Shown piece by piece: positions 13,395 to 49,317 of a stretch of 64,000 nucleotides of DNA. This stretch comes from Struthio camelus (lineage: Eukaryota; Chordata; Aves; Struthioniformes; Struthionidae), in the NCBI RefSeq assembly GCF_040807025.1, contig NC_090967.1:4152001-4216000 (forward strand), in the 5' to 3' direction. The position numbers and the translations under genes were made by a program. The notes beneath the pieces were generated by a model, which saw only the letters and a program-made list of their open reading frames with translations, made no database searches and was not told the origin of the DNA. Numbering within the stretch: the stretch's first letter is position 1; each line of letters starts with the position of its first letter.

Positions 13395-14047
13395 CACAGA
13401 ATCACAGAATGGTTGAGGTTGGAAGGGACCTCTGTGGCTGGTTGCGGTTGGAAGGGACCTCTGTGGCTGGTTGCGGTTGGGAGGGACCTCTGTGGCTGGT
13501 TGAAGCTGGAAGGGACCTCTGGAGATCATCTAGTCCAACCCCCCGCTCAAGCATGGTCCTCTAGAGCATATTGCCCAGGATCGCGTCCAGGCACGTTTTG
13601 AATATCTCCAGCGAAGGAGACTCCACAGCCTCTCTGGGCAACCTGTGCCCGTCCTCTGTCACCCTCACAGCCAAGAAGTTTTTCCTCATGTTCAGATGGA
13701 CCTTCCTGTGTTCCAGTTTGTGCCCGTTGCCTCTTGTCCTGTTGCTGGGCACCACGGAGAAGAGACTGGCCTCATACTCTCGACACCCCCCCTTCAGATA
13801 CTTGTAGACATTGATGAGATCGCCTCTCAGTCTTCTCTTCTCCAGGCTCAACAGGCCCAGCTCCCTCAGCCTTTCTTCAGAGGAGAGGTGCTCCAGTCCC
13901 TTCATCATCTTAGTAGCCCTTCACTGGGCTCGCTCCAGGAGCTCCATGTCTCTCTTGCACTGGGGAGCCCAGAATTGCACACAGGACTCCAGATGTGGCC
14001 TCCCCAGGGCTGAGCAGAGGAGGCGGATCACCTCCCTCCACCTGCTT
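13395..14047 (-). mobile_element. CR1 LINE, 5'-truncated, minus strand
   Basis: Read on the minus strand, this is the last ~650 bp of an avian-type CR1 non-LTR retrotransposon. It holds the C-terminal part of the reverse-transcriptase ORF (from about [17 protein letters not shown] through [20 protein letters not shown] and NLMNMRKNF-like sequence to [14 protein letters not shown]), then a short 3' tail ending in ATTCTGTGATTCTGTG. It is severely 5' truncated, as is usual for CR1. The coding part is interrupted by one in-frame TGA after ELLERAQ, the same stop as in the copy at 33-34.6 kb. The 3' end carries four tandem 29-bp units. The copy looks young because it remains very similar to the second copy. 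Confidence 0.95.
13403..13518 (-). repeat. 29-bp tandem array in the CR1 3' end (4 units)
   Basis: Four head-to-tail 29-bp units (4 x 29 = 116 bp, no indels) of the CR1 3' sequence, minus-strand consensus beginning AGGTCCCTTCCAAC and ending CAGCCACAG. The terminal unit runs into the normal CR1 tail. An ordinary CR1 has one such segment. The same site is expanded to 13 units in the CR1 at 33.2-34.6 kb. Confidence 0.95.
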
Positions 14048-18060: not shown

Positions 18061-18705
18061 AGAGCATCGCTGCAGCTGAGTCTGGGGGGCAGGAGCGGGT
18101 AGCCAGGATGTGCGTCGCCCCGGTCCTCCACCGTCCCCCAGCCTTCGAGCCCCGCGCGGCCGGGGTGAGTTACAGGTGTGTTTGTGTGCGGATGCTGAAA
18201 AGGACCCTCAGCTTTGGGCTGCTCCAAACCATTTCCTAATTTTCCTGAAATCAAGAAGTTGCAAAAGAAAATAACCCTTTGGGAACAGACAGGATGGCAC
18301 AACTCCAGAATACAACTTTGCACATGAAAAGCATTTGTTTTTTCTCTTAAACTGGCAAAACAGGCATTTAATACAAATCTTTGGGGGAATGTGATGCACT
18401 TCTGGGATTTTTAGCCCCTGCACTGCCTGTCCTGCGTGCAAATCCTGATCCTGCTCTTGGTGCATCCTCGGTGTGCAGATCCTGTACAGGGAAAGCCCTG
18501 GTGCTGTGCTCGGGTTTGCTGTGCCTGCGAATTCATTGAACAGCCACAGCATAGCCTCGCTGAGAACTGTTTGAGACGTGACCTACTGAAATCCTGCCCT
18601 GGACTAACACCGGAGTGGTTTAAAGCTTCCAGGTCGAGACTCTGCAGATGCCAGGGCAAGTCTGCAAACACACATAACACTGGGCACAGGCGATGCTGTG
18701 CTGTG
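18061..18705. other. No gene recognised
   Basis: Sequence leading into the minisatellite cluster. A long open frame crosses it on the plus strand (from 18,436), but it owes its length to the downstream arrays and contains no recognised domain. Confidence 0.4.
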
Positions 18706-19167
18706 GGGAGGGATGCGGGAGGTTTGGGTACTGCTGCAGGGAGGGATGCGGGAGGTTCAGGTACTGCTGCAGGGAGGGATGCGGGAGGTTTGGCTACTGC
18801 CATGGGGAGGGATGCGGGAGGTTTGGGTACTGCTGCAGGGAGGGATGCGGGAGGTTCAGGTACTGCTGCAGGGAGGGATGCGGGAGGTTTGGCTACTGCC
18901 ATGGGGAGGGATGCGGGAGGTTCAGGTACTGCTGCAGGGAGGGATGCGGGAGGTTTGGCTACTGCCATGGGGAGGGATGCGGGAGGTTCAGGTACTGCCA
19001 CAGGGAGGGATGCAGGAGGTTCAGGTGCTGCCGTGGGGAGGGATGCGGGAGGTTTGGGTACCACTGCGGGCAGGGATGCGGGAGGTTTGGGTACCACTGC
19101 GGGCAGGGATGTGGGAGGTTTGGGTACCACTGCGGGGAGGGATGCGGGAGGTTTGGGTACTGCCGTG
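18706..19167. repeat. Minisatellite A: 14 x 33 bp
   Basis: Exactly fourteen 33-bp units with no indels, consensus beginning GGGAGGGATGCGGGAGG. The unit length is a multiple of three, so both strands stay open: GRDAGGLGTAA repeats on plus, PASLPxAVPxPP repeats on minus. Variant units occur in a repeating order (types A-B-C-A-B-C-B-C), so a 99-bp higher-order period was copied. Most likely noncoding; a proline-rich minus-strand protein is an unsupported alternative. Confidence 0.9.
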
Positions 19168-19334
19168 GGGAGAGATGTGTCCTGCAGCTCCGGTGAGCCT
19201 GGTGCCCGTTGTGCAGCCTCTCTGGCTGGGACTTGGGCACTGGGCTTCAGGGGCAGGATCGGGGAATCTAGAGTGGGGATCGGGGGAATCTGGGATCTGT
19301 ACAGGCAATCCAGGGGCCGGAGTAGGGGATTCAG

Positions 19335-20205
19335 GGAGGCAGGACCAGGGAATCCAAGGAGGCAGGACCGGGAGATCGGGGAGGCAGGACTGGGAGATCG
19401 GGGAGGCGGGACCAGGGGATCCAGGGGGGAAAGATTGGGGGATCCGGGGGGAGGCAGGACCGGGAGATCTGGGGGGGCAGGACCAGGGGATCGGCGGGGG
19501 CAGGAATGGGGGATCTGGGTAGGGGCAGGACCGAGGGATCCGGGGTGGGGGGCAGAAGTGGGAGATATGGGGAGGGGCAGGACCGAGGGGATCCGGGGGG
19601 GGCAGGACCGGGGGATCCGAGGGGAGGCAGGACGAGGGGATCCGGGGGAGGGCAGGACGAGGGGATCCGGGGCGGGGGGCAGGACCGGGGGATCCGGGGG
19701 GGCAGGACCAGGGATCCGAGGGGAGGCAGGACCGGGGGATCCGGGGGGGCAGGACCAGGGATCCGAGGGGAGGCAGGACCGGGGGATCCGGGGGGGCAGG
19801 ACCAGGGATCCGAGGGGAGGCAGGACCGGGGGATCCGGGGGGAGGCAGGACGAGGGGATCCGGGGGGGCAGGACCAGGGATCCGAGGGGAGGCAGGACCG
19901 GGGGATCCGGGGGGGCAGGACCAGGGATCCGAGGGGAGGCAGGACCGGGGGATCCGGGGGGCAGGACCAGGGATCCGAGGGGAGGCAGGACCGGGGGATC
20001 CGGGGGGGCAGGACCGGGGGATCCGGGGGGGCAGGACCAGGGATCCGAGGGGAGGCAGGACCGGGGGATCCGGGGGGCAGGACCGGGGCTCCGGGGGGGC
20101 AGGACCAGGGATCCGAGGGGAGGCAGGACCGGGGGATCCGGGGGGCAGGACCGGGGCTCCGGGGGGGCAGGACCAGGGATCCGAGGGGAGGCAGGACCGG
20201 GGCTC
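19335..20205. repeat. Minisatellite B: GC-rich 23/24-bp units, ~47-bp dimer
   Basis: About 870 bp built from GGCAGGACCGGGGGATCCGG-type units. In the distal half they alternate with a CAGGACCAGGGATCCGAGG variant, giving a dimeric period of about 47 bp. Every unit carries a BamHI-type GGATCC. The purine-rich plus strand has few stops. G runs in every unit predict G-quadruplex formation. Confidence 0.9.
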
Positions 20206-20870
20206 CGGCTGCGGCTGCGGCCCGGCGGGGCGGGCGGGGGCCGCTCCGCGGCTGGAGGCGGCCACCGTCCCCTGCGAGGCAGCCGCGGACGCGCCTGGCC
20301 GCGGGCGCGCACGGACGGGAGCGGCACCAGCCCCGGCACCGGCACCGGAGCGGCACACGGCGGCTCGGCGGCACCGGACCGGTCCGGACCGGACCGGGAG
20401 AAGGGGAGGCGGGTAGAGAGGGGTGTTTGCGGGCAGCAGCAACGCGGGCGGCCGCTCGGGGCAGCTCTCCGGCGGCACCGGCCGCGGCACCGGAGCGCAG
20501 CCCGGCTCGGGACCGGGCGGAGGCGGGGCCCGGCCCGCTCCAAACCCGCCCCCCGCCGCGGGCAGGAGGCGGCGGCCGGGCTCCCCCCCCCCCCCCCGCC
20601 CGCTCCCTCCGCCGCCGCCGCCGCGCCGAGCGGTGCCGGACCGAACCGCTCTGCCTCTGGCTCATGGCGGCCCCCGGCCCCACGCGTGTCCCCGGCCCGG
20701 TGCCGGTACGGAGTCGCCGCTGAGCGCTGCGCTTCGGCTCGGCGCCCAGGTAAGCCCCGCGGGTAGCCCCGGCTCGGCCCGACCCGGAGCGGCAGCGCCG
20801 AGCACCTGCCCGGCTCGGGGGACGGCTGCTGCCCCTCTCCCGGAGCCGCCGCGGCGCCGGGGGGAGCCCC
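20206..20870 (+). promoter_or_regulatory. CpG island with candidate first exon and splice donor
   Basis: Dense CpG sequence with GGACCGGTCCGGACCGG-type GC-box context, lying between two minisatellites. On the plus strand a near-perfect donor, CCCAG|GTAAGCCCC, places an exon end at 20,749. A short frame opens upstream at an ATG at 20,664 (MAAPGPTRV...) and stops before the donor, so an exon here would be mostly untranslated. It could start a noncoding RNA or a distal NRTN leader; no downstream acceptor can be assigned. Confidence 0.4.
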
Positions 20871-21114
20871 CGGGAGGGGCGGCCGGAGACCCCCGGGAGG
20901 GGCGGCCGGAGTCCGCGGGGAGGGACGGCCGGAGCCCCGGGGAGGGGGGGCCGGAGACCCCCGGGGAGGGGCGGCCGGAGTCCGCGGGGAGGGGCGGCCA
21001 GAGACCCCGGGGAGGGACGGCCGGAGACCCCCGGGAAGGGCGGCCGGAGACCCCCGGGAGGGGCGGCCGGAGTCCGCGGGGAGGGGCGGCCGGAGACCCC
21101 CGGGAGGGACCCCC
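20871..21114. repeat. Minisatellite C: ~24-bp GC-rich units
   Basis: About ten units of GGGAGGGGCGGCCGGAGACC type, mostly 24 bp, some shortened. Each unit holds a GGGGCGG GC-box-like core, so the array could act as a run of SP/KLF sites beside the CpG island. Confidence 0.9.
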
Positions 21115-28196: not shown

Positions 28197-29143
28197 TTCC
28201 ACCTCGCTGGAAGAGGTTGGGTTCCGCCTCGCTGGAAGAGGTTGGGTTCCGCCTCGCTGGAAGAGGTTGGGTTCCGCCTCGCTGGAAGAGGTTGGGTTCC
28301 GCCTCGCTGGAAGAGGTTGGGTTCCACCTCGCTGGAAGAGGTTGGGTTCCGCCTCACTGGAAGAGGTTGGTTGGGTTCCACCTCGCTGGAAGAGGTTGGT
28401 TGGGTTCTGCCTCACTGGAAGAGGTTGGGTTCCGCCTCGCTGGAAGAGGTTGGGTTCCGCCTCGCTGGAAGTTGGTTGGGTACCGCCTCGCTGGAAGAGG
28501 TTGGGTTCCACCTCGCTGGAAGAGGTTGGGTACTGCGTCACTGGGAGAGGTTGGGTACCGCCTCGCTGGAAGAGGTTTGGTTCCACCTCGCTGGAAGAGG
28601 TTGGGTACCGCCTCGCTGGAAGAGGTTGGGTACCGCCTCGCTGGAAGAGGTTGGGTTCCACCTCACTGGAAGAGGTTGGTTGGGTACCGCCTCGCTGGAA
28701 GAGGTTGGGTTCCGCCTCGCTGGAAGAGGTTGGTTGGGTACTGCCTCGCTGGAAGAGGTTGGTTGGGTAGCGCGTCGCTGGGAGAGGTTGGGTACTGCCT
28801 CGCTGGAAGAGGTTGGTTGGGTTCTGCCTCGCTGGAAGAGGTTGGGTTCCACCTCACTGGAAGAGGTTGGTTGGGTTCCGCCTCGCTGGAAGAGGTTGGT
28901 TGGGTTCCGCCTCGCTGGAAGAGGTTGGGTACCGCCTCGCTGGAAGAGGTTGGTTGGGTACCGCCTCGCTGGAAGAGGTTGGTTGGGTACCGCCTTGCTG
29001 GAAGAGGTTGGTTGGGTACCGCCTCGCTGGAAGAGGTTGGGTTCCGCCTCGCTGGAAGAGGTTGGTTGGGTACCGCCTTGCTGGAAGAGGTTGGTTGGGT
29101 ACCGCCTCGCTGGAAGAGGTTGGGTACCGCCTCGCTGGGAGAG
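28197..29143. repeat. Minisatellite D: 25/29-bp units, ~35 copies
   Basis: Tandem 25-bp unit GGTTGGGTTCCGCCTCGCTG plus GAAGA, with a frequent 29-bp variant carrying an extra GGTT. The unit is not a multiple of three, yet all frames stay open, giving long spurious frames with a cycling 25-residue peptide (SASLEEVGFRLAGRGWVPPR type on plus; NPTSSSEAEPNLFQRGG type on minus). The variant GGTTGGTTGGGT resembles two-tetrad G-quadruplex sequences. Not a gene. Confidence 0.92.
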
Positions 29144-30814
29144 GGCGGCCAAGTGATGGGGAGGAGAGGAGGATGATGAGAGTGGGAGTCAGAGGGAAGA
29201 GGATGCTGCGGAGAAAGCAGTGTTTCCGCTTGCCCTGCTCGGCACGGCCCCAGCTCAGCTCCCGAGCAGAAATCACTGCGCTGCGGATGGCGCGCCGCGG
29301 ACTGCGTCTGCAGGGAGCGAGGCGGATTCCTCTCCGGCTCCCATCTGCTGCCTGTTTTGTGTAATTTGGGACAGAAAAGCCGGCCCGGGACCTCCTGGGA
29401 AGGCATCGACGGCACCCACTCGGCCTCCCGGGGCGCAGAGCGAGGCTCCCCGGCACCCCAAAAGCGGAGGGCTAAAGCCGGCATCTCCGGGGAGGACAGA
29501 GGAATGGCCGGGCCTCTCGATGCGGCCAAGCTGCCGTCCTGCCCCAGCCAAATCCGTCCTGCGCTTTGGCCCGCGCAGAGCGAAAAAGGCTCCTGGAGAG
29601 AGCGCGTGGCCGGGTCGCACATCAAGCGCCGGTGGTTTAACGCATCCGACTCGGAGCATCCTCAGTGCCATCGCCAAAACTCGCCTGATCCCATGCGGGG
29701 TCCTTGCAGGGGTTTTTTTTTGTGCCGCTTTCACCCTCTTTTTTTTCCCCACCCCGAAGGCTCGAAAACCTCCGTCCGCCTCCGCGGCACTGCGAGGGCA
29801 TCGGCTCGGCGAGTGGGCAGAGCCCCGGGACGCTGCCGCTGGCGGAGCCGTCGGGCGCGCGGGAGCGAAATGTGCTCCGACGTCGCCCGGGCTTCATCGC
29901 GGTTTTCTTCCTTTTTCTTTTTTCCTTTCCTTTCCCCCCCCCCCCCTTTCCGCAGCTGTTGGGAGAGACCTAAGCCAATCCTGCCGAAACTCGGGCCGAA
30001 CGTTAAGTGCCGTGCGAGCGTGGGAACGGCACAGGTTGGCGCCCAGGGCTGCCGGCCACCCCGTGCCACCCCGTGCTCACCAGCAAATCCGGCGTCCGGT
30101 TAGCGTTTCCCCGCCACCCCAAAGCGACGAGCGGCTTTTGCCGCTGCTCCGAAAGGTTTTTTTGTTTTTTTCCCCCCCCCAAGAAGAGCAGCGGGAGCCG
30201 AGGGATGCGGCTTGGCTCCGTCGGCCGGCCGCCTCCGGGGAGGAGGAGCAGGCAGAGCGGGGCCGAGCGCAGAGCTTGGGAGTTTCCCCGCGGCGGGATG
30301 GTTTTCACTTAGGGAAAAGCAGCACCGTGCGTAACGCGCCCAATTTCTGCTTCGACTTCCTGGCGTGCAGGGACGGATATTCCGGCGATTAAATAATGAG
30401 CAAATCAAACAAGAGCATAATACGATACAAGAGCATAGTAAGATATCAAGTAAGAGCAGGGCTTGGGGCTTTTCTTTTTTTTTTTTTTTTCTCTTTCAAA
30501 GCTCCCCGTTTTGGGGGCAGCCTTGTCATTCTGGCGCTGTTGTGCACCAACTGGGGCAAAACGCACCCGTTTTGGACCAGAACCGAGCCACTAATTGGAG
30601 ATTGGAGGATGACTTTGTTTTCTTCCTCCCGTGGCGTGCCGTGGTTCCCCGGGGCGAGCCGGGTCGCCTCGACCCGATCCTCCTCCCTGTCCGGGAGCCG
30701 GTGATCCAGGCTTGGGCGGCTCCGTTCTCCAGGAGGGACGTGGTTGCCCGCGCCGAGCCCGGGTTTCATTCAGAGGCGGCCGTTGGAGGAGCCGCTTTTC
30801 AGCAGACCTTGGAG
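29144..30814. other. GC-rich region, no gene recognised
   Basis: High GC with C and T runs (29,934-29,947; 30,169-30,180; 30,475-30,491). No recognisable protein or RNA gene. Confidence 0.45.
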
Positions 30815-31165: not shown

Positions 31166-33171
31166 CACCGAAGGTTTTCAGGTCTCCTCCTTCCCCCTCC
31201 GTCTCCGCCGCGAGGAGGATTTCGGGCGAGAAGAAACCGATGCTTGTGGCCTCCGTCTCATGACGCCGGGAGGGACGTGGGGCTTTGAGACGGCGGCGGA
31301 TCTCCTGAAACGCGTCCTCAAGAGTCGGCCTGGGAAGTTAGAGGCGGGTTAGGAAAGAAGAGCTAGGAGAGAAAGGGAAAGCACGCAGAACGGCGACGTC
31401 CGAGAGGCCCGACGCGTTCGGTCCCCGCGGGCGACGGCGGCGCGGGCTGGGGCGGGGGGGTCCGCGGGGAAAGCGTTGCTGCTCTTTGGTCTGGCAGGAG
31501 AGCGGCCACGAAGAAGAACCAGCCTAGAAACCAGGCTCGGTTCCTTTTATTTTATCGCAATTTTTAGTTTTTTTCTGGCTCACAAGGGTAATTAAGCATT
31601 GGAAAAGTTTACTTAGGGCGGCCGGGTGGATTGGTTGCTTTTACGCTGAAACCGGATCCCTTCGGAAAGGAAAAGGGAGCTGCGCGGGGAGCTGGCCCGA
31701 TGCTTCCCGGGGAAGGATCCGCCAGAGCGCAGCCAAGGAAAGTCAAGCTGTTCTGCCCCGGCGGCCGTTCGGGCCAGTTTGCCAGCACTGCTATTCGTTT
31801 TGCCGGCGATTCGAGGTGCTCGGGAGCCCGAGCGTCTTTCCCTCGGCCCGGAAAGCCGTGAAGGGCAGCGGGAGGCGGTTGGGGCACGCGGGAAGCGAGC
31901 CGGGCGGCTTCCCGTGGGATGGAGTTTCGCCCTCGGCGGCAGCAGCGCGGTTGGACTTTGCTGCTCGCGTTCTCGGAAAAACGCGGGGAAATACCGAGGT
32001 CCGGCCCTTGGCTGGGAATAACGCTGCGGAAAAAGGACCTTGGCCTTTTTCGCGGCCGGGCGAATCCTGCCTCGGCTGCAGGGCGGGGGAAACGCGTGGG
32101 TTTTCCTACCCGCGTGCGCGCAGGCTGCTGCCGCTCCAGGCAGGGCAACGCGTGGCGTCGAGGTCGCTGCGCTGCCTCCTTCCAGCCGCTTCCTTTTTTT
32201 ATGCCCACGGCTCCTCGCCTCCTGCAGAGCTCTCTGGGCTCCGGTCTTGCCGCAAACCGTCTCCGGCTGCAACCCCAGAGCTAGTTTTGCTGGATTCCTC
32301 TGTCCCTTCCAGCAAAGTCGGAGGCGGCCTTGGCATCCCCAAGCCGGCGTCTCCTGCTCCCGGCCTCGGAGCCGAACGCGCGGGCGCTGCGCCCGCCTCC
32401 CCGTGCCGTCCGGCGCACCACGCTCGCACCTTTCTCTGCAAATTGCTTTAGGCCAGGTGAAGGATGAGGCAAAAGTATGGATTTAATGGGCGGTTTTCCA
32501 GGTACCTGCTGCACCAGGGGACACCCGGTGCTTTCCAGGACCCCGCTCCGGGCAGCTGGAGAGCTCAGCATCGCTCCCGCGGCACGGGGAGCCCAGGCAT
32601 GGGCACCTTCGGGTGCTGGCACCCTTCCCGGTGAGGTTTCGGGGATGAAGGCCAGGGTGCTGGGCCCCGGGGACGGCATGGCCCTCGTGGCCGCTGTTCC
32701 GGGGGCTGCCAGTGTGGGTGCCCTCCGGCCGTGGTTTCGCTGCCAAGCCCCTAAGCCCGTGCGATTCTTTATCGTTGCTCGGAGCAGGTTTGAAAACTCG
32801 CACGTGGAAACGAGGGAGACGGGAGGGAGCAGTCTGCACGGCGGCCCGGTGAGTCCCGGGCTGTGATTTGTGCGTGCGCGTCTTCCCTTTCCCCCTCTGC
32901 ACGTCAGCTCTCCCTGCAGGTCGGCACACGTGGGCTGCGGCTTTTTAGGGTGAGAGGAACCGACAGCAAAGCTTGGAAGAATTATTGCAATTGTTTTGCC
33001 CGCCAGAGCAGGGATTTAGTTTTTCGAAAGGTCACCAGCATGTGATTTGGGCCAAAAATACCGGCTTCTGAAATAGGAGGGTTTTTTTTTCCCCCAGCGA
33101 TGCGGAAGTAGGTGGCCGCGCATCGCTGGGGGACGCCGAGCCCACCCACCGGCGCCTGGGCTGCACCTCGG
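31166..33171. other. GC-rich region, no gene recognised
   Basis: High-GC sequence with compositional open frames on both strands. No feature recognised up to the CR1 boundary. Confidence 0.45.
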
Positions 33172-34643
33172 CTTTTGACACTGTCTCCCATCACATCCTC
33201 TTAGGCAAGCTCAGGAAGTGTGGGTTGGGTGAGTGGACAGTGAGGTGGGTTGAGAACTGGCTGGATGGCCGAGCTCAGAGGGTTGTGGTCAGTGGTGCAG
33301 AGTCTAGTTGGAGGCCTGTAGCTAGTGGTGTCCCCCAGGGGTCAGTCCTGGGTCCAGTCTTGTTCAATGTATTCATCGATGACCTGGAGGAAGGGACAGA
33401 GTGCACCCTCAGCAAGTTTGCTGATGATCCTAAACTGGGGGGAGTGGCTGACCCACCAGAAGACTGTGCTGCCATTCAGAGGGACCTGGACAGGCTGGAG
33501 AGCTGGGCGGAGAGGAACCTCATGAAGTTCAACAAAGGCAAGTGCAGGGTCCTGCACCTAGGCGGGAATAATCCCATGCAGCAGTACAGGCTGGGGGCTG
33601 ACCTACTGGAAAGCAGCTCTGCAGAGAAGGACCTGGGAGTCCTGGTGGACAAGTTAAGCATGAGGCAGCAATGTGGGCTTGTGGCCAAGAAGGGCAATGG
33701 TCTCCTGGGGTGCATGAGGCAGAGTGTTGCCAGCAGGTCGAGGGAGATGCTCCTGCCCCTCTCCTCAGCCCTGGGGAGGCCTCACCTGGAGTACTGTGTG
33801 CAATTCTGGGCTCTCCAGTGCAAGAGAGACATGGAGCTCCTGGAGCGAGCCCAGTGAAGGGCTACTAAGATGATGAAGGGACTGGAGCACCTCTCCTCTG
33901 AAGAAAGGCTGAGGGAGCTGGGCCTGTTGAGCCTGGAGAAGAGAAGACTGAGAGGCGATCTCATCAATGTGTACAAGTATCTGAAGGGAGGGTGTCGAGA
34001 GGATGGGGCCAGGCTCTTCTCCGTGGTGCCCAGCAACAGGACAAGAGGCAACGGGCACAAACTGGAACACAGGAAGGTCCATCTGAACATGAGGAAAAAC
34101 TTCTTGGCTGTGAGGGTGACAGAGGACGGGCATAGGTTGCCCAGAGAGGCTGTGGAGTCTCCTTCACTGGAGATATTCAAAACGCGCCTGGACGCGATCC
34201 TGGGCAATGTGCTGTAGATGACCATGCTTGAGCAGGGGGGTTGGACTAGATGATCTCCAGAGGTCCCTCCCAACCGCAACCAGCCACAGAGGTCCCTCCC
34301 AACCGCAACCAGCCACAGAGGTCCCTCCCAACCGCAACCAGCCACAGAGGTCCCTCCCAACTGCAACCAGCCACAGAGGTCCCTCCCAACCGCAACCAGC
34401 CACAGAGGTCCCTCCCAACCGCAACCAGCCACAGAGGTCCCTTCCAACCTCAACCAGCCACAGAGGTCCCTTCCAACCTCAACCAACCTCAGAGGTCCCT
34501 TCCAACCTCAACCAACCTCAGAGGTCCCTTCCAACCTCAACCAGCCACAGAGGTCCCTTCCAACCTCAACCAACCACAGAGGTCCCTTCCAACCTCAACC
34601 AACCACAGAGGTCCCTTCCAACCTCAACCATTCTGTGATTCTG
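33172..34643 (+). mobile_element. CR1 LINE, 5'-truncated, plus strand
   Basis: The insertion starts inside the reverse-transcriptase domain at FDTVSHHIL and continues through [20 protein letters not shown], the catalytic region (FADDPKLGG here; FADDTKLGG is the usual CR1 form), [27 protein letters not shown], then a TGA at 33,855-33,857. The same frame continues to LEIFKTRLDAILGNVL and a stop at 34,215-34,217. A one-codon deletion in VDNKLSM is also apparent. The 3' tail contains a 13-unit 29-bp array and ends ATTCTGTGATTCTG. The 5' truncation makes it immobile. High similarity to the 13.4-kb copy argues for recent insertion. Confidence 0.96.
34261..34637 (+). repeat. 29-bp tandem array in the CR1 3' end (13 units)
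   Basis: Thirteen exact-length 29-bp units (13 x 29 = 377 bp). The first six are CCCAACCGCAACCAGCCACAG type, the later ones CCTTCCAACCTCAACC type, so subtypes are grouped. The last unit merges into the normal CR1 tail. Confidence 0.96.
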
Positions 34644-35957: not shown

Positions 35958-36777
35958 ATGAAGGTATGGAAGTCGGCAGCCGTCGCGTCGATGCTCCTCA
36001 GTTCCATGTTGTCCATTTTGGTTTGTAGAGACATGCTCGGCGGAAGCCGGAAAGCCAGCCCGTCGCCTTCCTCGCCGTCCTCGCGGCCATCCTCGTCCTC
36101 CTCCTCGTCCTGGCCGCCGGCGCCTCGGCGCAGATCGCCCCGGGCCCTGGAGCGCCCCGGCTCGCTGCTCTCGCGCTGTAAGCGCCCGGCGGGCGACCGG
36201 GCTTGGGGGGGGGGGGGGGGGGGTTGGTTTTTTTTCCCCGCCGCGCGTGGGTTTTTTCCCCCGGTTTGGCAGCACCTCGGGCTGACGGCGCCGTGTCCCC
36301 CCCCCCCCCCCAAACCCCCCGACCCCGGCTCTTTGTCTTGCAGACGGCGCCTTGCTGGAGAGCTACACGGAGGGCGAGCTGCGGCGGCTGCTGGGCGCCC
36401 TGGCCGAGCGCGCGGGCTCGGCCGAGCTGGCGGCGGCGGCGGGCGGCAGCGGCGGCAGGGCCAAGCGGGCGCGCGCCCGCCACAAGCCCTGCGGCCTGCG
36501 CGAGCTGCAGGTGAGCGTCAGCGAGCTGGGCCTGGGCTACGAGTCGGACGAGACGGTGCTGTTCCGCTACTGCAGCGGCACGTGCGCCGCCGCCGTGCGC
36601 AGCTACGACCTGTCGCTGCGCAGCATGCGCAGCAGCCGGCGCATCCGGCAGGAGAAGGTGCGGGCTCGGCCCTGCTGCCGGCCGCTCGCCTACGACGACG
36701 ACGTCTCCTTCCTGGACGCCTACAACCGCTACTACACCGTCAACGAGCTGTCGGCCAAGGAGTGCGGCTGCGTGTGA
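35958..36777 (+). CDS. NRTN: Neurturin (GDNF-family ligand), two coding exons
   Basis: Coding exons 35,958-36,177 and 36,344-36,777 join in phase 1 (CGCT|gtaag ... ttgcag|ACGGC) to encode 217 residues; human neurturin has 197. The protein is a secreted TGF-beta-superfamily ligand that binds GFRA2 and activates RET for neuron survival. Residues 1-22 form a signal peptide (MKVWKSAAVASMLLSSMLSI, like human MQRWKAAALASVLCSSVLSI). Residues 34-62 are a Ser/Pro/Arg-rich propeptide stretch longer than in human. A furin-type site (RAKR and KRAR, 112-117) precedes the mature domain. The mature part has the seven cystine-knot cysteines (123, 150, 154, 184, 185, 214, 216) and family blocks SELGLGYESDETVLFRYCSG and VSFLDAYNRYYTVNELSAKE. 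The start matches the human N-terminus and follows a good acceptor. It converges on the FUT genes as in human. It looks intact. Confidence 0.97.
36178..36343 (+). other. NRTN: NRTN intron with poly-G and poly-C tracts
   Basis: A 166-bp intron (GTAAGC...TTGCAG). It contains a run of 19 G (36,205-36,223) and a run of 15 C (36,297-36,311) on the same strand. In the transcript these could pair into a very stable stem. The G run could instead form a quadruplex. Confidence 0.85.
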
Positions 36778-36939: not shown

Positions 36940-37945
36940 GGGGCTCTGTGGCAACACGTGCCGGGTGCGTTGCACGCGCGCGGCTCTCGCAGCACGCACA
37001 AGTGCATTGCACACGCGCAGGGCGTGTTGCACACGCATGACTTGCAACATGCATGGGTGCATTGCGCATACTCGGGGTGTGTTGCACACACGCAGGGTGT
37101 GTTGCACACGCATGACTTGCAGCATGCATGGGTGCATTGCACCTGCGCAGGGTGCGTGGCACATGTGTGGGGTGTCTTGCGCATGCACGGCTCTGTTGCC
37201 ACACGTACGGGTGTGTTGCACGCGTGCGAGGTGTGTTTCACACCCACAGCTCTGTTGCAACACGCACGGGTGCATTGCACACACACAAGGTGTGTTGCAC
37301 ACGTGTGGGGTGCGTTGCACACACGGCTCTGCTGCAACACGCACAGGTGCATTGCACACACACAAGGTGTGTTGCACACGTGTGGGGTGCGTTGCACACA
37401 CGGCTCTGCTGCAACACGCACGGGTGCATTGCACACACACAGGGTGTGTTGCACACACATGGAGGTGTGTTGCACATGCACAGCTATGTTGCAGCACGTA
37501 CGGATGTGTTGCACCCATGCAGGGTGTGTTGCACAAGCACGGCTATGTTGCAACACGCACGGGTGTGTTGCAGCCGTACAGCGTGTGTTGCTCACTTGTG
37601 GGCGTGTTGCACACGCACAGCTATGTTGCAACACGCATGGGTGTGTTGCAGCCGTGCAGGGTGTGTCGCACACTTGTGGGTGTCTTGCACAGGCACGGCT
37701 CTGTTGCAACACGAACAGGTGTGTTGCACCCGTGCAGGGTGTACTGCACCTGCGCGGGTTGTGTTGCACACGTGGAGGTGTGTTGCACACTCCCAGCTAT
37801 GTTGCAACACGCGCCGGCATCTTGCAGCCGCGCAGGGTGTGTTACACACTCGTGGGTGCGTTGCGCACACACAGAGCTCTGCTGCAACATGCACTGGCGT
37901 GCTGCAGCCACGCAGGGTGTGTTGCACCCACACAGGTGTGTCACC
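36940..37945. repeat. Minisatellite E: TG/CA-rich array in NRTN 3' region
   Basis: About 1 kb of degenerate GTGTTGCACACGCAGG-type units (roughly 20 bp). Near-perfect 77-bp higher-order copies start at 37,271 and 37,348 and a third begins at 37,425. Rich in TGTTGCAA/TTGCAC and alternating purine-pyrimidine steps. Long open frames through it (Cys/His/Thr-rich) are repeat artefacts. It begins about 160 bp after the NRTN stop and so probably lies in the 3' UTR. Confidence 0.9.
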
Positions 37946-40016: not shown

Positions 40017-40556
40017 CGTTTGCCCCATTTCGCACACCTTAGCCCCACTTAGCAGATATTAGCCCCATTTAGCACGTGTTATCCCCATTTAACATGTGTT
40101 ATCCCCATTTAATGTGCATTATCCCCATTTAACATACATTATCCCCGTATAACATGTTATCGCCACATAACATGCATTAGCCCCCATTTAACATGCATTA
40201 TCCCCATATAACCCGTGTTATCCCCATTTAACATGCGTTATCCCCACTTGACATGCGTTATCCCCATGTAGCACGCATTATTCGCATATAACACGTTATC
40301 CCCATGTAACACGTGTTATCGCCATGTACCGTGCATTAGCCCCCGTAAAACATGTATTATCCCCATTTAACATGCACTAGCTCCATGTAACATGCAATGT
40401 CCCCATATGATCTGCGCTATCCCTATATAATATGTGTCATCCTCATATAATATGTGCTAGCCCCGTATGATATGTGTTATCCCCATTCATTGTGTGTTAT
40501 CCCCCTATAACGCGTTAGCCCCATGCTAACACCCGTTAGCCCTGTTTAGCACACCG
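40017..40556. repeat. Minisatellite F: ~20-bp units with TTATCCCC cores
   Basis: About 26 degenerate units of GTTATCCCCATTTAACATGC type. About fourteen keep an exact TTATC (GATAA on minus), and many have ACATGT/GCATGC-like palindromic ends. It lies between the convergent NRTN and FUT genes. Confidence 0.92.
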
Positions 40557-44764: not shown

Positions 44765-44840
44765 TTTATTTCCCGAATGCGAGCCCACGAGTGGGTCAAA
44801 GGAAGGACGAACATGGCTGGAACCGAATTGCCTGTTTATT
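44765..44840 (-). terminator. FUT copy 1 polyadenylation signals
   Basis: On the minus strand, AATAAA occurs at 44,840-44,835 and again at 44,770-44,765, 160-230 bases beyond the stop codon. Both are suitable signals for a short 3' UTR. Confidence 0.6.
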
Positions 44841-44997: not shown

Positions 44998-46056
44998 CTA
45001 CACGAACCACGCGGACAAGTCCCGCACCACCTGGTACCGGGCCTCCGTCGTCTGCAGGACCCGGCAGGCCCGGCAGAGGTGGACGGCCCAGCCGGGCGCA
45101 TTCACGGGCTTCAGCCACCGCCGCCACTGGAAGTAGCGCTGGTATCTCTCAGCGTCCTCGCTCAGCTCCTGCAGGTACCGCGCCAGGTCCCGGGCGCTGG
45201 CAAAGTCATCAACGTGGATGAAGGCGTCGGGGGGCAGAAAGCGCTCGTAGTTGTCCCGGGGCGGCCCGAGGACGACGGGGACGGTGCCAGCCGACAAGGC
45301 GTTCCTCCAGACCTTCTCGGTGATGTAGTCCTCGTGCTGCGAGTTCTCAAAGGCCAGGTAGAACTTGTACTGGGCCATGGTGGGCAGGAGCTGGTCTTGG
45401 GCCAGGGGCCGGTGCTGCTGCCCGTAGACGTCCACGGCGATGTGCTGCCTCAGCTGCTCGTAGTACTTCACCCGGTGGGAGTCTGCCCGCCAGTTGCTGA
45501 CCACCCAGGCCACGAGCTTGGCCTTGGGCGGGATGCTGAAGGGCTGGGGCTGGCTAAGGAGCTGCAGCTCCCCGTAGGGGCTGAAGATGTCCGAGTCCCT
45601 CCGGTAGGACATGGTCAGGTTGAAGAGGTTGTCCATGGCGCCCAGGTTGGCCGAGTGACTGGGCGACTCCAGGTTGAACCAGATCCAGCGCTGCGAAGGC
45701 ACCCGCGGGCCCTGGGGCAGCCGCTCGGGGCCGGCGTAGATGCCGTCGTGGTGCATGATGATGGCATTGGCCGCCGCGTACCGGCTCCGGTTGGCGGTGA
45801 AGCGGCAGTCGGGGACGCCGTAGAGCGCCGAGCACTTCTGCGGCGTGAAGCGCTGCCCGAAGGGCCAGGTCCACAGCAGGACCAGCAACGGGGGCCGTGC
45901 CCGCCCGGGCCGCGCCGCCGCGGCCCGACACGCCGCCGACCTCAGCCCGCCGGGCCGCGCGTAGGCCAGGAGGCAGAGGGCCGCGGCCAGGCCGGCCAGC
46001 AGGCCGGCGAGGCAGCAGCGGCCGCAGCCGGGCGCCTTCCCTCGGGCGGGCTCCAT
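44998..46056 (-). CDS. FUT3/5/6-like: Alpha-1,3-fucosyltransferase (GT10), copy 1
   Basis: Single coding exon of 352 residues (human FUT3 has 361). It transfers fucose from GDP-fucose to GlcNAc of lactosamine-type glycans in the Golgi. Type II membrane layout: short basic/Cys cytoplasmic end, transmembrane segment about residues 14-33, short Ala/Arg-rich stem, then the catalytic domain. Motifs: LLWTWPFGQRF (60-70), N-glycosylation site NRS (89), QRWIWFNLESPSHS, SYRRDSDIFSPYG, and the GT10 signature FENSQHEDYITEKVWRNAL. The acceptor-specificity segment reads HHDGIY (102-107) and lacks the W or R seen in human HHWD/HHRE. The ATG at 46,056 is the first in frame before a typical membrane anchor. 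From P120 to nearly the C-terminus it is identical in DNA to copy 2. It appears intact; activity is uncertain because of the altered HH motif. Confidence 0.95.
   Translation of the reverse strand: MEPARGKAPGCGRCCLAGLLAGLAAALCLLAYARPGGLRSAACRAAAARPGRARPPLLVLLWTWPFGQRFTPQKCSALYGVPDCRFTANRSRYAAANAIIMHHDGIYAGPERLPQGPRVPSQRWIWFNLESPSHSANLGAMDNLFNLTMSYRRDSDIFSPYGELQLLSQPQPFSIPPKAKLVAWVVSNWRADSHRVKYYEQLRQHIAVDVYGQQHRPLAQDQLLPTMAQYKFYLAFENSQHEDYITEKVWRNALSAGTVPVVLGPPRDNYERFLPPDAFIHVDDFASARDLARYLQELSEDAERYQRYFQWRRWLKPVNAPGWAVHLCRACRVLQTTEARYQVVRDLSAWFV
45024..45699 (-). repeat. 676-bp tract identical to FUT copy 2
   Basis: Matches 48,258-48,933 base for base by eye, with equal length and no indel. 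It covers the catalytic domain from SQRWIWFNL to RYQVV. Outside both edges similarity falls abruptly. Confidence 0.92.
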
Positions 46057-46190
46057 GCGGGGCCGCCGACAGGCTCCAGGGCGGCGCGGGGCCCGGCCTG
46101 CAGGGCCCGAATATGGCCCTGTCACCCCCCGGGGGCCGCCTGCCCGCCCCAGCCGCTGCCACCTCACGCCCCTTCCCGACAGCTTAAAAA

Positions 46191-46205
46191 TATATATCTA
46201 TATAT
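46191..46205 (-). promoter_or_regulatory. TATA-like element upstream of FUT copy 1
   Basis: Minus-strand ATATATAGATATATA lies 135-150 bases upstream of the copy 1 ATG in otherwise GC-rich DNA. This spacing would allow transcription to begin near 46,160 with a short unspliced leader. No good splice acceptor is evident between it and the ATG. Confidence 0.4.
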
Positions 46206-46876
46206 GCTGTCTGTCTATCTCGCAGCCCACACGACGGGCCGGTGGCGGGGCGTTAGTCCTGTGTCCCCCCCCCGCTTTCCGTGACGCCGAGGGTAAGCGG
46301 CAGCTCTCGGCGGTGGCGCCGTCTCGGCCCGTGCCCCTTTGCTCTTCCCCGGGGGGATCCTGCCTTTTGGCGGCCGGCGGCCCCCGCTGGGCTTGGGGAT
46401 GGGTTCGGGGGTGCCGGAGGCGCTGGGAGCCGGCGTTGGCCGCCGCAGCCGGCCCGACGGTCCCTCCGAGGCTCCTCGAGGACCCGAGCGGCCTCAGGAA
46501 GGGGTCGACTGGCCGCGCAGCAGCGGGAAGACGGGGAAGAGAGGGGCGGCGTCGGCGTTCGGATTTCAGAGCGAAGGAGCTGGCCTTCGGCTTGCCCAGA
46601 TCCCCGCGTTCAAGCCATCTGCAAAGCAGAGCGGGGAGGAAAAAAGCAGGTAACGGAGGTTGCTGGTGACCGGGGCTCACAGCGGTACAGTCTTGCAGAG
46701 GGACCTTCTGCTACCAAGCGACTGCAGGCAGAAACGCAGAGGGAATTCATGGCCGATGGCGACAGAATAAGCAATTGGGCACCTGAACACATCGGTGGTC
46801 TTGGAGCTGATTTACCACGCAGGACGTGTGGGAACGTGGGGTTAGAATAAATCTATGAAGACCTCAACACGGGGCT
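46206..46876. other. FUT intergenic spacer, no gene seen
   Basis: GC-rich upstream flank of FUT copy 1. Open frames here are unrecognisable and overlap on both strands. Confidence 0.45.
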
Positions 46877-47057
46877 CACAGAATGACAGCATGGTTGAGG
46901 TTGGAAGGGACCTCTGGAGAGCGTCTCGTCCAATCCCTCCAGCAGGGCCACCGAGAGCAAGTTGCCAAGCTCTGGGTCCAGATGGTTTCTGAATATGTCC
47001 AAGGAAGGACACGCCACAACCTCTCTGGGCAACCTGGGCCAGTGCAAGGATATCCAG
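46877..47057 (-). mobile_element. Older CR1 3' fragment, minus strand
   Basis: Minus-strand reading shows a diverged CR1 tail: the plus strand starts CACAGAATGACAGCATGG, then GTTGGAAGGGACCTCTGGAG, then CAACCTCTCTGGGCAACCTG. There is only one copy of the 29-bp segment. Divergence from the two younger copies suggests a different, older subfamily. Sequence at 47,160-47,250 (CTCCTCAACCTGGAGAAGAA) may be a further CR1 scrap. Confidence 0.85.
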
Positions 47058-47873
47058 AGCTGTAGGAAGGGACCCCAGGAGGGCACCGCTGCCCCATGGT
47101 TCCTGCGGGCCCCCCAGCCCCAGCCAGCCAGAGCAGAGGGGAGTGGGAGGTGCGGAAAAGCTGCATGGGGGAAACAACTCAGTGCGATGGGGCTCCTCAA
47201 CCTGGAGAAGAAACAGCTTACAGGCATACAGGAGAAAGTTGACTAAGGGCTACTCCTTCAGCCTGTTTTTGCAACGCGAGGCCCAGAGGGCGTCCACTGA
47301 AGTCGGACGTCGAGAGGTTCAGATGCTGCGGGACGCCTTGCCGCAAGGCACTGCATGCGCTAAAACTTCACGTGCTGCAAGGGGCGGCTAGGCAAACGGA
47401 CGAAAAACATCCGCAAAAGGCAATTAAAAGGCAAAGACACCACCTCAGGTTTCTGTAAGTCACTGGAGAAGCCGAGGGAAAGTCCGCATAGTTGGCCGAG
47501 CCAACTGTTTCCAGAACGGGGGCTCGCTCCTTCCCCTTCCCTCCCTGCTCTCGCTCCCATCGGCTGCTCTCACACTCTTTCCTGAACCAATCGTGTCTTG
47601 CCAATCTGGCCAAAAACTAGCCTTGCAAAACAAAAAGTGAAGAGTTGCCTGCCTGTTCAGCACCCTGCCGCAGCACCTCGAAGACAGTCAGGGAGGGCTG
47701 GAGGCAGAGCAAGGGCAGAAGTGGGGTGGTGGGCTGGGAGGTGAAGAAGGAAGGGGTGAGACCGCACCTTCCAGCAGCAGCTGGTTGCATCATGGCCCGG
47801 CCACTCCTTCCACCACAGCCTTGCAGAGTACAAAGTCCCTGAAGCAGGTTTATGATACATATTTTTATTCCAC
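47058..47873. other. FUT intergenic spacer, no gene seen
   Basis: Moderate-GC sequence between the CR1 fragment and the 3' end of FUT copy 2. Nothing recognised apart from the possible CR1 scrap already noted. Confidence 0.5.
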
Positions 47874-47879
47874 CTACCC
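47874..47879 (-). terminator. FUT copy 2 polyadenylation signal
   Basis: AATAAA on the minus strand, about 353 bases past the copy 2 stop, in an AT-rich 3' flank. Confidence 0.55.
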
Positions 47880-48231
47880 CTCCCAGCCATTTGTTTCTAC
47901 TCTCCAACATATGGAGTGACCCAGAGCTGTTAGCAGATTGGTGGTTTAAAAAAAAAAAAAAAAAAGCATTTTGCACTGAATTTCTCCATAGGCAAGGCTG
48001 CAGCCTGCATTAACTCAAACACCAACAGAAAAAAAACCCAATGTACTACTCTATCGGGTAGTCTATTATCTCGTAAAACAAAGACATGAACACTGATTGT
48101 TTCCTTGTTCCTGTTGGTTTCAAAGCTCTTATTGTCCCTCCATTTTTAACAAGTTCAATCCTCCTGTGAAATTGCACCCAATCGCAAGTTCAACAAGATC
48201 AAAATACAGTCAGGAGCCGAGAAAATAGCAG

Positions 48232-49317
48232 TTACACAAACCACTCAGATAGCTTGGGCACCACCTGGTACCGGGCCTCCGTCGTCTGCAGGACCCGGCA
48301 GGCCCGGCAGAGGTGGACGGCCCAGCCGGGCGCATTCACGGGCTTCAGCCACCGCCGCCACTGGAAGTAGCGCTGGTATCTCTCAGCGTCCTCGCTCAGC
48401 TCCTGCAGGTACCGCGCCAGGTCCCGGGCGCTGGCAAAGTCATCAACGTGGATGAAGGCGTCGGGGGGCAGAAAGCGCTCGTAGTTGTCCCGGGGCGGCC
48501 CGAGGACGACGGGGACGGTGCCAGCCGACAAGGCGTTCCTCCAGACCTTCTCGGTGATGTAGTCCTCGTGCTGCGAGTTCTCAAAGGCCAGGTAGAACTT
48601 GTACTGGGCCATGGTGGGCAGGAGCTGGTCTTGGGCCAGGGGCCGGTGCTGCTGCCCGTAGACGTCCACGGCGATGTGCTGCCTCAGCTGCTCGTAGTAC
48701 TTCACCCGGTGGGAGTCTGCCCGCCAGTTGCTGACCACCCAGGCCACGAGCTTGGCCTTGGGCGGGATGCTGAAGGGCTGGGGCTGGCTAAGGAGCTGCA
48801 GCTCCCCGTAGGGGCTGAAGATGTCCGAGTCCCTCCGGTAGGACATGGTCAGGTTGAAGAGGTTGTCCATGGCGCCCAGGTTGGCCGAGTGACTGGGCGA
48901 CTCCAGGTTGAACCAGATCCAGCGCTGCGAAGGGATTCTGGTGACCTGGGACAGTCCCTTTACGTTCCAAGACACATCCCTATGATGCACAATCACAGCA
49001 CTGGCCTTGTGGTACCAGCTCCGGTTGGCAGTGAAGTGGCATTCTGGCGTGCTGTAGAGCTCCGAGCAGCTGCTGAATTTAAAGCGCTGCCCAAAGGGCC
49101 AGGTCCACAGCAAAATGGTCAGCTCATGCTTGCTTTTTGGTGGGGTGCCGGAATCAGTGAGGGCTGTTTGTGCAGAGGGATGGGTATTATTATGCTCTGG
49201 CTCAGGAGTCCTGAACTGATGAAAAGAAGCAAAGAGACAGAAGCTGAATATGAAGCTGAAGAGCATAAAGGTGAGGAGATTCTTGCAGAAGGTCTTCTTC
49301 CCTTCCATGAGCTCCAT
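48232..49317 (-). CDS. FUT3/5/6-like: Alpha-1,3-fucosyltransferase (GT10), copy 2
   Basis: Single coding exon of 361 residues starting MELMEGKKTF, the same length as human FUT3. The ATG at 49,317 is chosen because a splice acceptor (TGGTGTTTGCAG) ends at 49,326, eight bases upstream, as in mammalian FUT3/5/6 whose coding exon follows noncoding leader exons. An ATG at 49,344 lies in the presumed intron; one at 49,308 is also usable. Features: basic N-terminus, strongly hydrophobic transmembrane segment about 14-32, Thr/Pro/Ser stem, LLWTWPFGQRF (69-79), NRS glycosylation site (98), HHRD (111-114), then the GT10 catalytic domain with the FENSQHEDYITEKVWRNAL signature. The Arg in HHRD is the residue family knowledge links to alpha-1,3 activity on type 2 chains (Lewis x, sialyl Lewis x). 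It looks fully functional. Confidence 0.96.
   Translation of the reverse strand: MELMEGKKTFCKNLLTFMLFSFIFSFCLFASFHQFRTPEPEHNNTHPSAQTALTDSGTPPKSKHELTILLWTWPFGQRFKFSSCSELYSTPECHFTANRSWYHKASAVIVHHRDVSWNVKGLSQVTRIPSQRWIWFNLESPSHSANLGAMDNLFNLTMSYRRDSDIFSPYGELQLLSQPQPFSIPPKAKLVAWVVSNWRADSHRVKYYEQLRQHIAVDVYGQQHRPLAQDQLLPTMAQYKFYLAFENSQHEDYITEKVWRNALSAGTVPVVLGPPRDNYERFLPPDAFIHVDDFASARDLARYLQELSEDAERYQRYFQWRRWLKPVNAPGWAVHLCRACRVLQTTEARYQVVPKLSEWFV
48258..48933 (-). repeat. 676-bp tract identical to FUT copy 1
   Basis: Partner of 45,024-45,699. The tract is GC-rich, while both flanks of this copy (N-terminal coding part and 3' UTR) are far more AT-rich, so it looks imported here. Confidence 0.92.

Follow-up and report, generated by a model that had tools for sequence, protein, structure and literature searches.

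How can two neighbouring genes be old paralogues along one part of their length and identical along another? This question is raised by a 64-kb stretch of the ostrich (Struthio camelus) genome (C26:4,152,001-4,216,000 of the assembly, hereafter the window), which carries two tandem alpha1,3/4-fucosyltransferase (FUT) genes, called here copy 1 and copy 2 (Table 1). The arrangement is best explained by a recent interlocus gene conversion in which 676 bp were overwritten, with copy 1 as the most likely donor and copy 2 as the most likely recipient, and we give this reading a probability of about 0.8.

An identical tract between diverged flanks

The alignment of the two copies runs gap-free from LLWTWPFGQRF to the stop codon (882 bp) and contains a maximal exact match of 676/676 bases with no indel, which cannot be extended by one base in either the 5' or the 3' direction. 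The two copies of this tract share orientation and frame, at a distance of 3,234 bp, and comprise 225 codons plus one base, running from PSQRWIWFNLESP to YQVV. Codon sites identical between the copies include 108 four-fold and 106 two-fold sites, and there is no change at 155.7 synonymous sites, giving a synonymous divergence (dS) of 0 inside the tract. Given the 74 differences in the alignment, the probability of a run of at least 676 bases is about 1e-50. None of the 18-mers of the tract is repeated on either strand in the rest of the window. An earlier examination of the letters without database searches (the sequence-only reading) had given the coordinates, length, identity and lack of indels of the tract exactly, synonymous sites included.

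Both edges of the tract adjoin diverged homologous sequence. In the catalytic part on its 5' side, 116/180 nucleotides and 32/60 residues are identical in an ungapped alignment, with a proportion of synonymous differences (pS) of 0.53, a dS of 0.92 over 41.2 synonymous sites (a rough value, as base composition differs between the copies) and a nonsynonymous divergence (dN) of 0.39. At the 3' end, stop codon included, 16/26 bases are identical (P 2e-4), the proteins ending in ...VVRDLSAWFV and ...VVPKLSEWFV. Further out, the similarity of the stem/transmembrane part is near chance, its score being reached by 5/100 shuffles, and the outer flanks do not rise above shuffled sequence (score reached by 29/100 on the 3' side beyond the stop codon and by 45/100 on the 5' side). 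The statement that the N-terminal halves share similarity only at the level of motifs is consequently apt for the stem/transmembrane part and fails from LLWTWPFGQRF onwards, while the statement that the 3' flanks are unrelated holds beyond the stop codon and not for the last 26 bases.

Both copies are intact GT10 alpha1,3/4-fucosyltransferase genes, each formed of a single open reading frame (ORF) in which the two GT10 domains of Pfam exceed the cut-off. Copy 2 has an alternative start at ATG 49,344 (370 codons), and its reference sequence in the protein alignments begins two residues before ATG 49,317. Among solved structures the top match of each copy is FUT9, with 325.1 bits for copy 2 and 301.5 bits for copy 1, and alpha1,3/4-fucosyltransferase activity and linkage are predicted for the two from their sequences. 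The motif AATAAA occurs 3' of copy 1 at 44,840 and 44,770 and 3' of copy 2 at 47,869. From the ATG of copy 1 to the stop codon of copy 2 there are 2,175 bp, and within this interval (46,876-47,040) lies an older remnant resembling CR1-like elements (77-78% identity across some 150 bp, and 95% across 41 bp).

With regard to domains, the C-terminal GT10 domain as matched by Pfam starts 56 residues into the tract in both copies and ends six residues past the last full codon of the tract, while in copy 1 the final 43 residues of the N-terminal Pfam match lie inside the tract. The tract thus takes in the last portion of the N-terminal domain together with the GDP-fucose-binding domain, short of a few residues at the end of the latter; the acceptor part largely escaped. 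The catalytic base, which we take to be Glu137 of FUT9, would fall in NLESP within the tract. A residue deciding between type 1 and type 2 transfer is placed in the 'hypervariable stem domain' by a title cited in PMC8433944. Structure prediction of both copies from two-row alignments was uninformative, with mean predicted local distance difference test (pLDDT) scores of 34.0 and 36.8.

Table 1. Features of the two fucosyltransferase genes and a syntenic neighbour (window coordinates; values under Basis for Pfam domains and protein matches as obtained in the searches)
Feature	Position	Strand	Basis
FUT copy 1, single ORF, 352 codons + stop, ATG 46,056	44998..46056	-	Glyco_transf_10 8.5e-70; Glyco_tran_10_N 2.5e-39; human FUT9 6.3e-89
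FUT copy 2, single ORF, 361 codons + stop, ATG 49,317	48232..49317	-	Glyco_transf_10 1.5e-69; Glyco_tran_10_N 1.7e-42; human FUT9 5.1e-96
Identical tract, copy 1 (probable donor)	45024..45699	-	exact match; 100% place in assembly
Identical tract, copy 2 (probable recipient)	48258..48933	-	exact match; GC3 and CpG unlike flanks
Unconverted, diverged 5' catalytic part (acceptor side), copy 1	45700..45879	-	116/180 nt; dS 0.92; dN 0.39
Unconverted, diverged 5' catalytic part (acceptor side), copy 2	48934..49113	-	116/180 nt; dS 0.92; dN 0.39
Diverged 3' end with stop codon, copy 1	44998..45023	-	16/26 against copy 2
Diverged 3' end with stop codon, copy 2	48232..48257	-	16/26 against copy 1
Motif II position, copy 1: MHHDG, off the rule	45742..45756	-	alignment; rule of PMC11949838
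Motif II, copy 2: VHHRD, fits the rule	48976..48990	-	alignment; rule of PMC11949838
Neurturin-like exon, syntenic marker	36286..36774	+	TGF_beta 5.2e-12; neurturin chain 1.5e-45

Probable gene conversion, its direction and the alternatives

Gene conversion is recognised by a near-identical tract, synonymous sites included, between diverged homologous flanks, and this is the structure found here. The identity at synonymous sites, with old homologous flanks on both sides, therefore argues for a recent event of this kind, as the sequence-only reading had proposed, and the common orientation and frame and the spacing of the copies agree with it. On this reading, a tract was recently replaced in place between two alpha1,3-fucosyltransferase paralogues that are arranged in tandem and diverged long ago, probably when a meiotic break in one was repaired from the neighbouring gene. 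The two enzymes would thereby have come to share a donor-binding half while differing in their acceptor halves. As flanks with 64% identity are a poor substrate for pairing, the C-terminal halves were probably similar already and earlier conversions are likely; the present tract would then be the latest of several, through which the donor-binding half was kept similar while the acceptor half escaped and drifted apart. The absence of change at 155.7 sites bounds the divergence per synonymous site at <0.019 (95%). Substitution rates in birds range from 1.2e-9 to 4.6e-9 per site per year, at which the age of the last conversion would be below about 8 to 2 million years.

An identical tract could also arise during assembly or polishing, if the consensus of one of two similar copies were written over the other. 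The tract is a local repeat, which is where such consensus errors occur, and a single assembly is the sole witness to it. However, the window and 30 kb beyond each of its ends are free of undetermined bases (N), and in the assembly (1.45 Gb, 262 contigs) the tract matches four places, of which only the two described here reach 100%, the others being on C1 (74%) and C20 (77%). The flanks of the two copies differ, and the 967-bp 5' flank of copy 2 has one full occurrence, its other match being of only 101 bp (81%) inside the 5' part of copy 1. The assembly accordingly holds two genes with different flanks at this position, and not the single FUT gene that had been named as a possible counter-observation. 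An overwritten consensus would, moreover, still presuppose a high similarity of the two tracts amid diverged flanks, and this leads back to conversion; an artefact is considered improbable.

A protein search of the assembly returned seven matches, of which two are the genes described here and three lie on C1, C3 and C20, the remaining two, on C41 and C7, being weaker. By similarity, the genes on C1, C3 and C20 are called FUT4-, FUT9- and FUT7-like respectively. Comparison of these three with copies 1 and 2 bears on the idea that strong purifying selection, without any conversion, has preserved the C-terminal half since an old duplication. In each of the ten pairs of the five genes the tract region is indeed better conserved than the 5' part, with identities of 1.00 and 0.53 for copy 1 and copy 2 and of 0.47-0.54 and 0.31-0.45 for the other nine pairs. 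At the pS of the flank, however, about 82 changes would be expected at the 155.7 synonymous sites of the tract where there are none (P ~1e-51), so that constraint was rejected on synonymous sites and can be set aside for practical purposes. A partial duplication, in which a 3' fragment of one gene became joined to an unrelated 5' part, would agree with the little or no similarity of the stem/transmembrane part and outer flanks. It was rejected on the homologous old sequence present on both sides of the tract (116/180 ungapped and 16/26), according to which the two genes already existed in full when the event occurred, and it is regarded as very improbable. A tree of the 60-residue 5' part pairs copy 1 with copy 2 with a support of 72, most alternative trees not being rejected.

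The direction of the transfer was addressed through base composition. The tract has a guanine-cytosine (GC) content of 0.66, which is higher than that of the 500 bp outside copy 2 (0.49 on the 5' side and 0.44 on the 3' side) and in keeping with the GC-rich surroundings of copy 1 (0.73 and 0.57), as had been noted from the letters. At third codon positions (GC3), copy 1 passes from 59/60 before the tract to 211/225 within it, while copy 2 rises from 44/60 to 211/225 (P 3.4e-5). The corresponding counts are 63/63 and 204/225 for the FUT4-like gene, 30/60 and 91/225 for the FUT9-like gene, and 48/61 and 160/225 for the FUT7-like gene. Copy 2 is the only one of the five FUT genes compared with a rise at the boundary, and this added control, with no rise in the four others, supports the proposal that copy 1 was the donor. 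Codon choice was modelled on the 5' coding parts (119 codons of copy 1 and 130 of copy 2), and all five tract blocks are more likely under the model of copy 1, with margins of 5.6 to 15.6 log units over that of copy 2. The observed/expected ratio of CpG is 1.04 in the 5' catalytic part of copy 1 and 0.37 in that of copy 2, against 0.71 in the tract; in the final 26 bases of copy 2 it is 0.00.

Several points weigh against this account. By thirds, the CpG ratio of the tract is 0.48, 0.73 and 0.86, the 5' third being nearer to copy 2 (0.37) than to copy 1 (1.04), and GC-biased repair could raise the GC content of the tract whichever copy was the donor. The broken copy is normally the recipient of a conversion. 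Recombination in birds is stated in an excerpt of PMC10781513 to favour CpG islands and start sites, so the break may have been at copy 1, which would then be the recipient. As for repeated conversion, the identity of the 5' part shows no rise toward the tract (28, 18, 22, 20, 12 and 16 of 30), and bounds kept by selection would give an abrupt edge too. The identity of the tract itself rests on one assembly. Transfer from copy 2 to copy 1, with enrichment through biased repair, is the weightiest of the alternatives, albeit an unlikely one. The GC3 of the tract matches copy 1 (0.98 before and 0.94 in the tract) and breaks the level of copy 2 (0.73 to 0.94), whereas the three other FUT genes drop slightly at the boundary. 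Furthermore, the 5' part of copy 1 exceeds the tract in GC content, and no special enrichment is needed if the tract came from there. Given conversion, copy 1 is the probable donor.

Motif II and the acceptor side

The rule for motif II of alpha1,3/4-fucosyltransferases acting on lactosamine acceptors is [F/I/V]HH[R/W][E/D] (PMC11949838). It is obeyed by copy 2, by the FUT4-like gene (FHHRD) and by the FUT9-like gene (IHHRD), and broken by copy 1 and by the FUT7-like gene of the same genome (FHHDV). Copy 1 is a GT10 protein with an intact frame, but with this motif lactosamine fucosylation cannot be taken for granted; it may use a different acceptor or be a weak enzyme. The change was at one point considered unique to copy 1, an idea which was dropped, as the FUT7-like gene is also without the Arg. 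Faster evolution of the acceptor part of copy 1 was likewise not upheld: its branch is longer (0.87 vs 0.24), but copy 1 alone matches an outgroup at 5 sites and copy 2 alone at 7 (P 0.77).

It is worth mentioning that FUT7 has the motif HHRE according to an excerpt of PMC3479001, in which strict conservation across other vertebrates is stated for the motifs. The FHHDV of the gene on C20 may be a lineage-specific change, or the gene may not be FUT7.

A possible, if doubtful, extension of the conversion reading is a domain-selective concerted evolution. Repeated conversion would homogenise the GDP-fucose half, while selection would remove conversions reaching into the acceptor half, where copy 1, having departed from the usual HH[R/W][E/D] motif, would have taken on a new acceptor. 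If this is true, the locus is a natural domain-swap series for acceptor specificity. The identical donor-binding half and differing acceptor half in themselves provide a natural experiment on how alpha1,3-fucosyltransferases choose their acceptors, in this case with an altered motif II in one of the copies. In this genome the 3' half of the two genes would be a misleading source for trees and for short-read expression counts.

The locus, related systems and the rest of the window

The neurturin-like gene lies about 8 kb from the FUT pair, which fits the neighbourhood of human FUT3, FUT5 and FUT6 at 19p13.3. No further FUT gene was found in the window or within 30 kb past either end. Like the ostrich pair, the human genes are GT10 alpha1,3/4-fucosyltransferases in tandem with neurturin nearby. 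The human triplet is presumably a primate expansion, and the ostrich pair is therefore probably an independent duplication, in which it differs from FUT3-FUT5-FUT6. A title cited in PMC3479001 describes a single bovine gene homologous to the putative ancestor of the human triplet. A single coding exon, as in the pair here, is stated for human FUT3, 4, 5, 6 and 9 in an excerpt of the same source.

Among the literature matches listed, as far as their titles and abstract openings go, none mentions conversion between alpha1,3-FUT genes of birds, or states that this locus is homogenised in other birds or, as the sequence-only reading had put forward, in human FUT3/5/6. Abrantes et al. are said to have described in 2009 gene conversion between FUT2 and SEC1 in mammals. 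This is likewise an interlocus conversion between adjacent fucosyltransferase genes, but those are alpha1,2-fucosyltransferases of CAZy family GT11. A parallel in bacterial and unrelated proteins is found in the release factors RF1 and RF2, where conversion reportedly spares the specificity domain; the conversion is between old paralogues differing in specificity (PMC4530459). As a process, conversion between tandem paralogues is nothing unusual. The notable points here are that the bounds of the tract nearly match the division into donor and acceptor halves, and that the probable donor has an odd motif II.

The window has 633 ORFs of at least 60 residues. A Pfam scan of ten chosen ORFs gave one TGF-beta and one reverse transcriptase match above cut-off, as well as SYCE1 below it (0.086), with 7/10 having no match. 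Scans of the window for Rfam families and tRNAs gave no match, and in a comparison with viral contigs two stretches fitted a pattern with no relatives being found. The reverse transcriptase domain match is located at 33,072-33,854. There are also two inverted copies with 95% identity (13,410-14,046 and 33,732-34,369), presumably resembling the 3' part of CR1, each of which runs into an array of a common 29-bp unit (3.9 and 12.9 copies). In addition, long minisatellite arrays are present at 18,699-21,110, 28,197-29,144, 37,002-37,941 and 40,022-40,524.

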